This document shows, piece after piece, positions 55,257-58,662 of a stretch of DNA of 64,000 bases (within the stretch, counting starts at the first letter, position 1; the number at the start of each line of letters is the position of its first letter). This DNA is from Pseudomonas taiwanensis DSM 21245. GTDB taxonomy: Bacteria; Pseudomonadota; Gammaproteobacteria; Pseudomonadales; Pseudomonadaceae. The notes under the pieces are model-generated. The model ran no database searches. It saw nothing but the letters and a program-made list of their open reading frames with translations, and had not been told where the DNA came from. The DNA lies in the NCBI RefSeq assembly GCF_000425785.1, contig NZ_AUEC01000014.1, positions 1 to 64,000 on the forward strand, given 5' to 3'. Both the position numbers and the translations under genes were made by a program.

Positions 55257-56558
55257 ATGCTGAAAATCCTGGTGCGCCTGTACCTAGTGATCATCGTCGC
55301 CTACGCCGGTGCCTTGCTGTTGATTCCGGATGCCATCGTCGGACTGTTCCAGGACCGCTTCATGGCCTATAACCTGGAGCAGGCCAAAGGTGTACAGACC
55401 TTGATCGTCCGCCAGTTCCAACAGACCCCGTCCGAGCAGTGGCCGACGGTGGAGCGGGACCTGGCCAAGGTGTTCGAGCCGCTCCAGGTCCAATTGCTGC
55501 GCAATGACCAGGCGGGCTTGAGCCGCGACGAACAGGCGCGCCTGGCGCAAGGGCTTTATGCGGTGCGTATCGGCGATTGGGGTTACTACGAGACCGTTTT
55601 GGCCCCGCTGAACAATGACTGGCTGGTACGTTTGCATGCGCCGCCCGATCCGCTGGACATCAACCTCTTGTCCTGGGGCGTTACCGTGTTGATTGGCGCG
55701 GCCATGCTGGGATGCCTGCTGCTGTGGGTGTGGCCGCACTGGCGTGACCTTGAGCGACTCAAGGAGACCGCAAGGTGTCTGGGCCAAGGGCAGATGGCCG
55801 AGCGCACGCACATTTCGCCGCATTCCAACATCGGAGAACTGGCGGGAGTGTTCGACACCATGGCCAGTGACCTGGAACGGCATGTGAATCAGCAACGTGA
55901 ACTGCTGAACGCGGTTTCCCATGAGCTGCGCACGCCGCTGACCCGCCTGGATTTCGGCCTCGTGCTGCTGTTCGATGAAGTGCCGCCAGCCAGTCGCAAA
56001 CGCCTGCTGGAACTCGTTGGGCATGTGCGCGAGCTGGATGAGCTGGTGCTTGAGTTGTTGTCCTATAGCCGCTTGTACAACGCCGACCAGGCCCGTGAGC
56101 GGGTCGAGGTGTCGCTGCTGGAGTTGGTCGACAGCGTGCTGGGCGGTTTTGCCGAGGAGCTGGACGGCCGTGGTATCCAATGGGAAGTGCGCGCAGAGGG
56201 CATGTTGCCGCGCTTCGTGCTCGACCCGAGGTTGACCGCGCGTGCAGTGCAGAACCTCGTGCGCAACGCCATGCGTTATTGCGACCAGAGCCTGTTGCTG
56301 CGCTTGCGGCAGGAGGAGGACGGGGCCTGCCTGCTGACCGTGGAGGATGATGGCATCGGTATTCCGCCCGAAGAACGCGAACGCATCTTCCAGCCGTTCT
56401 ATCGCCTGGATCGCAGCCGTGACCGCAACACCGGTGGGTTTGGCTTGGGGCTGGCGATCAGCCGAAGGGCGATCGAGGGGCAGGGCGGGACATTGACCGT
56501 GGCGCAGTCGGCGTTAGGGGGGGCGCAGTTCAGGATTCGTCTGCCGGCGTCTTCCTAG
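55257..56558 (+). CDS. sensor histidine kinase, RstB-like
   Basis: A 433-residue membrane kinase: first transmembrane segment (LVIIVAYAGALLLIPDAIVG), periplasmic domain (about 30-135), second transmembrane segment (VTVLIGAAMLGCLLLWVWPH), HAMP-like linker, HisKA with NAVSHELRTPLTRLDFGL, and HATPase with N-box LVRNAMRYC, DDGIGIPPEERERIFQPFYR and GFGLGLAIS. It would phosphorylate the neighbouring regulator. Its stop overlaps a convergent small membrane protein gene by 4 bp. Confidence 0.94.
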   Translation: MLKILVRLYLVIIVAYAGALLLIPDAIVGLFQDRFMAYNLEQAKGVQTLIVRQFQQTPSEQWPTVERDLAKVFEPLQVQLLRNDQAGLSRDEQARLAQGLYAVRIGDWGYYETVLAPLNNDWLVRLHAPPDPLDINLLSWGVTVLIGAAMLGCLLLWVWPHWRDLERLKETARCLGQGQMAERTHISPHSNIGELAGVFDTMASDLERHVNQQRELLNAVSHELRTPLTRLDFGLVLLFDEVPPASRKRLLELVGHVRELDELVLELLSYSRLYNADQARERVEVSLLELVDSVLGGFAEELDGRGIQWEVRAEGMLPRFVLDPRLTARAVQNLVRNAMRYCDQSLLLRLRQEEDGACLLTVEDDGIGIPPEERERIFQPFYRLDRSRDRNTGGFGLGLAISRRAIEGQGGTLTVAQSALGGAQFRIRLPASS

Positions 56559-56722
56559 GCGAGGAATCCGGGTGAGGTGGGCGGGTCCTGAGCATCCTGC
56601 TTGAGGGTGAAGTAGACGGCGGCGCCGCACAGGCCAACCAGTCCCACGCTGGCCACGATGATGTCGCCCAGGACCATGCCGAGGACTAAAACCAACAAAC
56701 TGAGGCGTGAGAGGGTGGTCAT
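56555..56722 (-). CDS. small membrane protein of unknown function
   Basis: A 55-residue protein: MTTLSRLSLLVLVLGMVLGD, IIVASVGLVGLCGAAVYFTL, then a polar tail KQDAQDPPTSPGFLA. Two hydrophobic helices separated by an aspartate suggest an inner-membrane protein. The ATG at 56722 is preferred to a longer frame. Convergent and overlapping with the kinase gene. Similar short ORFs beside two-component genes are found in Pseudomonas, but no function is known to me. Confidence 0.55.
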   Translation of the reverse strand: MTTLSRLSLLVLVLGMVLGDIIVASVGLVGLCGAAVYFTLKQDAQDPPTSPGFLA

Positions 56723-56835
56723 GGCGAGCTCCGTGGCGATTGGTCCGTCCCTGTTCCCTACCTTAACGCGTTGGATCCGATTTTGCAGCGCCAATATCGA
56801 GGGGTACAAATGTTCTCTTTCCGTTTCGCTGCGTT

Positions 56836-56910
56836 CTATAGTCGGCCTATAATCGTCTGTAAAATCGCGCTTCTATAATTTGTCTATAATCGCTCTATAG
56901 TTTCCTATAA
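56836..56910. promoter_or_regulatory. array of CTATA repeats spaced about one helical turn
   Basis: CTATA(A/G) occurs at 56836, 56847, 56873, 56884, 56895 and 56905, with a degenerate copy (CTGTAAAAT) at 56857. Spacings are 11, 10, 16, 11, 11 and 10 bp. Three copies read CTATAAT, also resembling -10 boxes. The array ends 20 bp before the ATG of the ATPase gene and is AT-rich in GC-rich surroundings. Confidence 0.75.
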
Positions 56911-56930
56911 CCGACGCTCAAAGGACCGGA

Positions 56931-58088
56931 ATGACCGAAACCCTCTATCACCGACCCGCCCTGGCTGCGCGGCTTTCCAAACTGATCTTGCAGGTCGCGG
57001 TGGGCAGTGCTGCCAGCTCGGGCGTTTTCCTGGCGGCGCCACGGCGTACCGGTAAGTCCACCTTCGCCCGTGAAGACCTGCGGCCTGCCTTGGAGGCGAC
57101 AGGGGCGATCGTGCTGTACGCCGACTTGTGGAAAGACCTGAAGAAAGACCCTGGCCAGGTCATCGTCGAGGCGGTACGCGAAGCGGTCGGGCGCAATGAG
57201 GGTTTCATCACACGGCTGGCACGGTCGTCGGGGATGGAGAAGGTCGTAGTCGGTGGCCTCAACTTCAGCCTGGACAAGATTGGCCTGGGCAAGGACATCG
57301 ACCTGACGGCAGCGTTGGTGGCACTTTCCGATGAGTCGAAGAAGATCATCGTGCTGATCATCGACGAAGCGCAACATGCGATCACCACCGACGAAGGCGT
57401 GGCAGCACTGTTCGCGCTCAAGGCGGCGAGGGACGAGCTCAACAGCTCAAGGCACTACGGCCTGCGCATCGTTTGCACCGGTTCGAATCGGGACAAGCTG
57501 GCGATGTTGCGCAACAGCAAGGACCAGGCATTCTTTGGCGCTTCGATGGTGCAGTTTCCAACGCTGGACCAGGACTTCATCGACTGGTTCTGCGCCAACG
57601 TCGATCTTGCCGGAGCACTGGACCCTGCTCAGGTGTTCCAGCTGTTCAAGGAGAGTGGTTATCGTCCTGAACTGCTGGGCGCGGCAGCCGACGAGATCCG
57701 ATTCGACTTCGTCATCGAGCCGGATGCGATTCCTGCACGCTTTGCCGAACGGGTGCGCGCCCAGGCCGATGAGCTGAACGCCAACCTCAGGAAGGTAATT
57801 CACAGCCTGACCCCGATCCAGTCGGCGGTGATTCGGGTGATGAGCGTCAAGGGCGATGACTACGCGCCCTTCGAAGCGCCGACCATGGTGCTTTACGGCA
57901 AGGCCATGACCCTGGCGGGCATCGAGGCGAGTGACGTCCATGTCGAGGTTCCCGGCGTGCAGCAGGCCCTGATCGCGCTACAGCAGAAGAAACTGGTGTG
58001 GAAAGCCTCGCGAGGCGTGTACGCGGTCGATGACTCGGTGATTGCCGAAGTGCTTCGCGCCGATGGCCTGCTCGAAGGTCTGGAATGA
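56931..58088 (+). CDS. AAA-type ATPase with C-terminal winged-helix-like region, function unknown
   Basis: A 385-residue protein. Walker A is APRRTGKSTFARED (about 35-48), Walker B IIVLIIDEAQHA (about 140), with a sensor-like segment LRIVCTGSNRDKLAML and FPTLDQDFIDWF. The last 120 residues (ANLRKVIHSLTPIQSAVIRV, GIEASDVHVEVPGVQQALIA, LQQKKLVWKASRGVYAVDDS) look like a winged helix, as in the 'archaeal ATPase' and similar STAND-like P-loop proteins. It stands alone behind the CTATA array, which suggests autoregulation through its own DNA-binding part. It could be involved in DNA maintenance, stress or mobile-element defence; nothing in the neighbours decides. Confidence 0.8.
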   Translation: MTETLYHRPALAARLSKLILQVAVGSAASSGVFLAAPRRTGKSTFAREDLRPALEATGAIVLYADLWKDLKKDPGQVIVEAVREAVGRNEGFITRLARSSGMEKVVVGGLNFSLDKIGLGKDIDLTAALVALSDESKKIIVLIIDEAQHAITTDEGVAALFALKAARDELNSSRHYGLRIVCTGSNRDKLAMLRNSKDQAFFGASMVQFPTLDQDFIDWFCANVDLAGALDPAQVFQLFKESGYRPELLGAAADEIRFDFVIEPDAIPARFAERVRAQADELNANLRKVIHSLTPIQSAVIRVMSVKGDDYAPFEAPTMVLYGKAMTLAGIEASDVHVEVPGVQQALIALQQKKLVWKASRGVYAVDDSVIAEVLRADGLLEGLE

Positions 58089-58281
58089 GCCCGCTCGAAG
58101 GCGGCGCGGGGTCTTGAGCTACGAACCTTCATAACGACTATAGCGAACCTGCCTATGGCCAGCGGATGCCCAGGGCTAGACTGAGCAGGTTGAGCCTGTC
58201 GACCTGCTGACGCCACAATAAAAAAGGGCTGTATCCGCCGAACGTTGATTTTCCTATCGGGGCGCGTCGGAGAATTGCCAC

Positions 58282-58662
58282 ATGAAACGCACGTCCAGCA
58301 TTCGTCCATCACTTTCCATTACCCGTCATGCGCTGGTACCGCTGTTTGCGGCCCTACTGGTGACGGGGTGCGCCCATGACCCGGATATCCGGATGGGGCA
58401 TGACAATGTGGCGGGGACCACGCTGAAAAGCCCGCCCGACTTCATAAAATGCGTACGGGATGAGCTTCCTGCGGGTGAGAAGGCATTCATGCGCGAAGAC
58501 AACCATGCGCTGGCGCTGTTCCTCGAAAGCACGGACCCACGACAGTCCACCGGCCTGGTCGAGATTCGCCCGTCTGGAACGCAGCATCACTATTCCGCTT
58601 ATCAACGCGATGCCTGGTACGACAAGGGCAGGTTGTTGGACGCAGCACTGATGTGCTCGTGA
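58282..58662 (+). CDS. small lipoprotein of unknown function
   Basis: A 126-residue protein with a long signal peptide and lipobox VTGCAH (cysteine about 30). The mature part (DPDIRMGHDNVAGTTLKSPP, FIKCVRDELPAGEKAFMRED, YSAYQRDAWYDKGRLLDAAL, MCS) has two further cysteines likely to form a disulfide. GGAG lies 10 bp before the ATG at 58282. Small lipoproteins with this mature pattern occur in Pseudomonas without assigned function. Confidence 0.7.
   Translation: MKRTSSIRPSLSITRHALVPLFAALLVTGCAHDPDIRMGHDNVAGTTLKSPPDFIKCVRDELPAGEKAFMREDNHALALFLESTDPRQSTGLVEIRPSGTQHHYSAYQRDAWYDKGRLLDAALMCS

Follow-up and report, generated by a model that had tools for sequence, protein, structure and literature searches.

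We found that the gene of a stand-alone AAA+ ATPase in Pseudomonas taiwanensis DSM 21245 is directly preceded by an array of short CTATA sites, spaced by 10 or 11 bp within two blocks, and that such phased arrays recur before most of its closer homologues. The array is probably a cooperative operator at which the ATPase, whose predicted fold is ORC/SSO1545-like, represses its own gene. In the mechanism that we propose, the C-terminal winged helix of the protein would recognise CTATAA-type sites, and subunits would sit on neighbouring sites one helical turn apart, probably with the help of AAA+ contacts and of the nucleotide state. The filled array would cover the promoter or the leader, and the ATPase would in this way set its own level by repression. 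That the ATPase itself binds the array, that it acts as a repressor of its own gene and that ATP tunes its binding are what we infer from the comparisons described below.

The array and the ATPase

The stretch of DNA that was analysed (the window, 64 kb) carries the array at positions 56836-56909, as read from the sequence of the plus strand. The putative upstream operator block (56836-56861, plus strand) has exact CTATA at 56836 and 56847 and a degenerate CTGTA at 56857, spaced by 11 and 10 bp, and the promoter-proximal block (56873-56909, plus strand) has exact CTATA at 56873, 56884, 56895 and 56905, spaced by 11, 11 and 10 bp. With the 16 bp between CTGTA and the second block, the spacings of the seven sites (six CTATA and one CTGTA) are thus 11, 10, 16, 11, 11 and 10 bp. 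The array ends 21 bp 5′ of the ATPase open reading frame, which confirms the initial annotation, where a helically spaced CTATA array had been placed directly before the gene. The further suggestion that all sites share one face of the DNA stands inside each block, but not between the blocks, which are 26 bp apart in the window, counted between exact sites; since this is not an integral number of turns, the sites cannot all lie on one face. The concentration of sites is far from that expected from composition: of the 13 plus-strand CTATA in the 64-kb window, six are inside the 74-bp array, where about 0.03 would be expected (window P(CTATA) = 0.00036 per position). In the whole genome, a three-site pattern gave four matches (two arrays) versus none in the reversed control; two of the matches are at the window array, and the other two are one further array on contig C31.

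A purine-rich AAAGGACC (56919-56926, plus strand), read from the sequence as a possible ribosome-binding site, lies between the array and the ATG. On the other side of the array there is a small divergent open reading frame (56555-56722, minus strand; about 55 amino acids, membrane-like). The initial annotation had also listed a CTATAG/CCTATG pair 3′ of the gene (58138-58156, plus strand), as a weaker pair. The pair is present, but it had no counterpart in the six orthologues compared besides the window, one of which (L086) has a single CCTATGG; it is not conserved, looks like a chance occurrence, and we place it outside the system.

The gene (56931-58088, plus strand) encodes a protein of 385 amino acids, which we assigned as an AAA+ ATPase from its open reading frame, motifs, structural model and structure comparison. 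It contains APRRTGKST and IVLIIDEAQ, the Walker A and Walker B motifs, and a sensor-1-like TGSNRDK, whose TGSN we take to be sensor 1. The AlphaFold model (pLDDT 87.8) shows an AAA+ core followed by a C-terminal winged helix at about residues 295-366 (helices 295-310, 316-328 and 340-352; strands 356-358 and 364-366), with 340-352 as the putative recognition helix. The winged-helix-like tail that had been noticed from the sequence is thus borne out by a confident model.

With the predicted model as query, the nearest solved structure was archaeal ORC2 (1w5s; Z 17.3, 5.2 Å, 334 residues aligned), and SSO1545 (2fna) matched with Z 16.4 at 5.7 Å over 314 residues. The comparison also returned 2v1u and 2qby (Z 14.7-15.6 at 9.4 Å), MuB (8xvb, Z 13.1) and TnsC (8fcu and 9g0f, Z 13.0), each family named in this way being a fold match only. 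A profile search of PDB sequences found 2fna (E 0.0022), the sole other match being 2e7v (E 0.52), and returned no Orc1/Cdc6 protein at E up to 1. The window protein scores under the curated Pfam cut-offs of AAA_22 (23.3 of 27 bits), AAA_14 (21.1 of 27) and ATPase_2 (18.2 of 33.2); at E up to 0.001, AAA_22 was found in 49/49 members of A1, and PADLOC matched the AAA part weakly to mad8 (E 4.2e-5), a match seen in 28 of the 49. According to the model, then, the window ATPase folds like archaeal ORC/SSO1545 proteins and has a winged helix at its C terminus.

Conservation, phasing and covariation of the upstream sites

Of 398 genomes of the genus, 129 have a homologue of the ATPase at E up to 1e-20, and from a wider collection the best 80 of 170 homologues, mostly from Pseudomonas and beta-proteobacteria, were kept. 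The comparison set consisted of 142 different full-length proteins from 153 loci with a match, which we divided into clade A (57 members at least 49% identical, window included) and 85 other homologues. When the same array was sought before these genes, at least three consecutive exact CTATA spaced by 10 or 11 bp were present in 35/57 clade A upstream regions versus 0/85 of the others (36/57 in clade A by a laxer criterion), and at least two in 43/57 versus 0/85. All 22 homologues that are at least 79% identical (window included) have at least two exact CTATA upstream, and 21 of them have six to eight. Clade A arrays also precede the ATPase gene in beta-proteobacteria, and the plasmid-borne homologues of pNY8709-IMP and pMRCP2 (68-69% identity) have CTATA upstream, two sites 11 bp apart in the former and five in the latter. 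Repeated sites in the promoter or leader of the ATPase gene are therefore, as the initial annotation had led one to look for, conserved across orthologues (exceptions L100, L101 and L148). The expectation held for most of clade A, but in the distant clades related sites are arranged in another way.

The phasing is equally conserved. Adjacent CTATA in the 57 clade A upstream regions are 10 or 11 bp apart in 163 of 207 cases, and never 5-9 bp apart, whereas random placement gives 10- or 11-bp distances in 9% of cases on average and in 15% at most. We used adjacent distances instead of a mean-cosine test on all pairwise distances, which is a poor statistic because the blocks are mixed in it. In Pseudomonas orthologues an 11-11-10 block recurs, often in two copies, and the upstream block is found in most close orthologues. 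The distance between blocks is mostly 24-26, 33-36 or 44-45 bp, so that the blocks seem to shift by whole turns, yet without a common face.

More distant homologues carry related words in place of CTATA. Clade B (Pseudomonas, about 40% identity) has ATTATAG, ATTATAC and the palindrome CTATAATTTATAG, and a GTATAA adjoins the ATG; the sites before the ATPase gene are of the GATAA type in clade D (mostly beta-proteobacteria) and of the CATAA/AATAA type in clade E (Pseudomonas, about 32% identity). These words were counted against shuffles that keep mononucleotide, not dinucleotide, content. CTATAA occurs in 48/57 clade A upstream regions (154 sites versus 5.5 in the shuffles) and GATAAA in 15/16 of clade D (37 sites versus 1.5); CATAAT/ATTATG in 14/16 of clade E, and CTATAA (24/28) and GTATAA (28/28) in clade B, were also largely enriched over such shuffles. 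The commonest base before ATAA is T in 55/57 members of clade A and 24/28 of clade B, G in 14/16 of clade D, and C or A in 16/16 of clade E. By eye, site positions relative to the ATG are similar in clades B, D and E.

As judged from the sequences compared, the upstream sites change together with the clade of the protein. The site code is not clean, given that the base-before-ATAA label takes 17 changes on the tree, a count without a shuffle for comparison, and that in group F the commonest base is mixed. The covariation test is also partly circular, since the clades other than A were delimited partly from tree order and partly from the upstream motif. In a tree of the AAA part only (FastTree, with long-branch warnings), clades A, B, C, E and F each fell on one side of a branch, and clade D needed two changes.

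In clade B the sites overlap a promoter. All 28 upstream regions contain TTGAC/TTGAT-N16-TATACT with the -10 element inside a site, versus a mean of 0.6 in mononucleotide shuffles; this overlap is the strongest sign of repression. The same sigma-70 pattern was found in 5/57 clade A upstream regions (shuffled mean 1.5, maximum 5), and a consensus scan of window positions 56700-58300 found no sigma-70 promoter. Promoter overlap is therefore established for clade B, whereas clade A has little excess over the shuffles.

Homologous genes without the array, which would speak against its role, exist to some extent. A three-member subclade of clade A (L100, L101 and L148; 69-71% identity) has lost the array: CTATA is absent from L100 and L148, and L101 has two that are 100 bp apart. 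Five further clade A members have at most one CTATA (none in L146; one each in L127, L136, L137 and L139). Seven positions with at least 95% conservation among the other clade A members are altered in two or all three of the array-less proteins. T183I in the TGSN motif and A359T in the wing are among these changes; in four comparison triples the number of such positions was 0-4. This pattern fits a joint decay of operator and function, in which the two would have been lost together.

An array next to a truncated gene was seen in two genomes. In G020 (L212) and G336 (L211) nothing but the winged-helix segment of the ATPase remains right behind the array. The 3-kb flanks of these unrelated loci do not match each other beyond array and segment, and the deletions therefore look independent. 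In G020 an open frame starts with an ATG immediately behind the array; G336 has no obvious early start there, and its winged-helix segment may be decaying. In a third genome, G394, an ATPase tail of about 18 residues is all that remains.

Arrays away from the ATPase gene

The ATPase gene stands alone. Among the open reading frames within 3 kb at 80 loci, no family besides the ATPase occurred in more than nine loci (top 14 clusters), and no transposase or replication gene recurred in these flanks; many orthologues lie on chromosome-sized contigs. We also considered a mobile single-gene element bounded by arrays, which was unsupported: no second array was found within 1.5 kb 3′ of the ATPase in L006-L012, and in 38 relatives the window flanks match separate places, with no clean empty site.

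In the 24 genomes with a close orthologue (at least 61% identity), phased arrays are found almost only at the ATPase promoter. Three-site arrays elsewhere in these genomes were limited to the one on C31, one in G246, on a contig other than that of the ATPase, and one in G208, which is a 9-bp tandem repeat. Such scarcity makes the ATPase gene itself the apparent main target. A looser two-site pattern gave 143 matches in the 23 genomes other than our own, 111 at the ATPase promoter and 32 elsewhere by hand count, versus 169 in total for the reversed control in the same genomes; in the own genome four of nine matches were at the window array, three on C31 and two elsewhere, versus three in the control.

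The three-site pattern was present in 56 of the 398 genomes (17 had a reversed-control match, by hand count of the table): in 22 of the 24 with an orthologue and in 34 of the other 374. For 29 of these 34 we searched for a relative of the winged helix; G030, G038, G087, G342 and G393 were left out, and the matches in all of them but G038 looked simple-repeat-like or unlike the consensus. A relative was absent from 24 of the 29 genomes; of the other five, two are the genomes with a truncated locus and three encode distant ATPases. A stand-alone winged-helix protein of the ATPase family that would serve these orphan arrays was rejected on this ground.

Orphan arrays are carried by Tn4651-type transposons, Pseudomonas plasmids, a phage-like region of the own genome and viral contigs. 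The unit CTATAATCRCT is common to many of them, as is a wider block of roughly 100 bp. A 131-base query carrying this block matched 59 plasmid records, all from Pseudomonas, and in 11 of 11 inspected, pWW0 among them, the array faces the 3′ end of the first gene on its right; neighbouring genes are arranged otherwise in L066 and L071 (mechanical open reading frame calls) and in the phage contig L257. In pWW0 the array (L109 6018-6043) is about 90 bp from the 3′ end of a gene for a site-specific integrase (tyrosine recombinase), which we take to be tnpS of Tn4651; the homologous neighbour in a P. veronii plasmid is annotated 'Tn4652, cointegrate resolution protein T'. pWW0, pQBR55 (L110) and L070 have nearly identical blocks, and homology between orphan loci often starts or stops near the array. 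By eye, we saw no clear terminal inverted repeat or target duplication at orphan arrays. A simple transposon end or MITE was rejected for want of a clear inverted repeat and because about 4.5 kb lie between the pWW0 array and the right-hand end of the block that this plasmid has in common with pQBR55. Genes for DUF6088 (AbiEi-like) antitoxins lie near several orphan arrays; an operator of these genes was rejected as well, as the upstream regions inspected had no array.

The second array of the own genome (C31 53993-54028; L005 7994-8029) has four exact CTATA. It is flanked by a DUF2971 gene and a phage-family gene, and integrase, HNH and Lar-like genes are found in the same region. At L046 1501-1537 and L076 10148-10183, from two genomes that have no close ATPase, only a few bases separate the array from the stop codon of the MvaT-family gene before it. 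The longest orphan array that we observed, L058 1005-1086 (G004, contig C26), has eight CTATA 11 bp apart, with seven exact CTATAATCGCT units, and a five-site version of it is found in a P. veronii plasmid (L112 6046-6094).

In viral contigs, each of two array patterns gave five matches, and the reversed control, run for the first pattern only, gave none; a third pattern, the CTATAAAG type of orphan array, had no match there. L258 and L261 are copies of one element, and one of the viral matches corresponds to the Pseudomonas element of L083; their AT-richness makes L259 and L260 weaker cases. Arrays lie at L257 6270-6296, L265 2743-2768 and L258 2370-2396. Those of L257 and L265 are beside related small genes of no known family, which at a guess could encode a terminase small subunit. 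No ATPase was found in annotated phages and none was confirmed in viral contigs, and the array-bearing phages had no match in the phage collection.

Readings of the array

The initial annotation had likened the array to cooperative operators and to iterons. A cooperative operator array that controls the ATPase is well supported, by sites that are conserved, clade-dependent and phased and that overlap the promoter in clade B. The comparison with iterons fell away. An iteron replicon has the gene of a Rep initiator and direct repeats of about 17-22 bp on a replicon, whereas here the unit is about 10.5 bp (10/11-bp steps), the lone gene encodes an AAA+ ATPase and not a Rep protein, and no replication gene recurs beside it. 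More broadly, the array might be an iteron-like or ORB-like origin or a partition site, and the ATPase the initiator or partition factor. Archaeal initiator genes often lie beside their binding repeats, the ATPase is ORC-like in fold, and some homologues and orphan arrays are on plasmids. We nevertheless find this very improbable, as, apart from the short unit, the sites reach the ATG and overlap the promoter in clade B, no neighbour family exceeds nine of 80 loci, and the family, present in only 129 of 398 genomes, is often on chromosome-sized contigs.

The main rival is that the array is bound by a different protein. One candidate is MvaT, the xenogeneic silencer of Pseudomonas, which would nucleate at the TpA-rich units, keep the ATPase gene silent as foreign DNA and use the orphan arrays too. 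MvaT has a preference for flexible DNA that contains multiple TpA steps, and it can tolerate G/C interruptions (PMC4466236); CTATAA offers two such steps. The proposal explains orphan arrays more easily: 24 of 29 genomes that have them are without a relative of the winged helix, in L046 and L076 they come right after MvaT-family genes, and pPUV-6 and pPUV-3 have annotated MvaT/MvaU-family genes close to theirs. It fits less well with a preferred word that varies with the clade of the ATPase and includes GATAA, with a single TpA step, and with a leading C of CTATA and a 10/11-bp step that are strict, strict words being not what one would expect of MvaT sites. In addition, clade A arrays also precede the gene in beta-proteobacteria, where the silencer differs from MvaT. 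Overall, we consider binding by another protein, such as MvaT, unlikely. We give very little credence to the idea that the CTATAAT units are a tandem series of -10 elements at which RNA polymerase is loaded or trapped, without any dedicated binding protein. Although CTATAAT contains the sigma-70 -10 hexamer, and clade B has a well-placed -35 element, the GATAA and CATAA words of clades D and E would be poor -10 elements, -10 elements do not need strict 10/11-bp phasing, and the consensus scan found no promoter in the window.

An autoregulatory operator bound by the ATPase would have close parallels in the heptads of omega2, the MetJ boxes and ParG, in which tandem short sites of 7-8 bp are filled cooperatively over the binder's own promoter. 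The window array is alike in its tandem short sites before the presumed binder's own gene, and differs in its 10/11-bp unit and in that the presumed binder is a winged-helix AAA+ ATPase. Orc1/Cdc6 proteins (1w5s, 2v1u, 2qby) share with this ATPase an AAA+ core and a C-terminal winged helix in the ORC arrangement, with most of the chain aligned; unlike them, it has no sequence-profile match to the family at E up to 1, no recurring replication context, and an array of short direct repeats. The SSO1545 type (2fna; ATPase_2/AAA_14/AAA_22) is its best sequence relative of known structure, although the window protein scores under the curated Pfam cut-offs, and, to our knowledge, neither an operator array nor a DNA target has been described for SSO1545. 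TnsC and MuB have an AAA+ core of similar fold, but no transposase recurs beside the window ATPase, which differs also in its C-terminal winged helix and its presumed sequence-specific array. A precedent for regulators of ATPase type is given by IniR and MalT, in which an ATPase and a DNA-binding domain act at a dedicated promoter; these are, however, large activators of other operons with sensor domains and a different DNA-binding domain, whereas the window protein is short and its apparent target is its own gene. The ATPase domain of IniR is described as structurally similar to SSO1545 (PMC5760070), and a relation of such folds to DNA binding by Cdc6/Orc1 has been argued for the plant receptor Rx1 (PMC4599002). 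Taken together, the array would work like known cooperative operator arrays and the ATPase is predicted to fold like ORC/SSO1545.

If the ATPase does bind its array, a so far unannotated array becomes a testable regulatory code, in which proteobacterial ORC-like AAA+ ATPases have clade-dependent upstream sites. The natural variants of sites and proteins could then be used to work out how a winged-helix ATPase reads DNA, and the system could serve as a small bacterial model of ORC-like DNA binding. The family would represent little-known bacterial DNA-binding ATPases that, according to the model, are shaped like archaeal replication initiators. An unstudied link between the sites and mobile elements is suggested by the orphan arrays of phages, transposons and plasmids. 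It is conceivable, though in our view quite unlikely, that the ATPase and its array converse with mobile DNA. Phages, prophages, Tn4651-type transposons and megaplasmids would then bring free copies of the operator block that either titrate the ATPase, which would be derepressed or disarmed when such an element arrives, or serve as landing pads for nucleation of this ORC/MuB-like protein; the cell would then sense or handle mobile elements through helically phased arrays. In the literature covered by our search, mostly outside subscription journals, we found no description of this array or its regulator. The 11-bp unit CTATAATCGCT does occur in two papers, whose titles concern other subjects.
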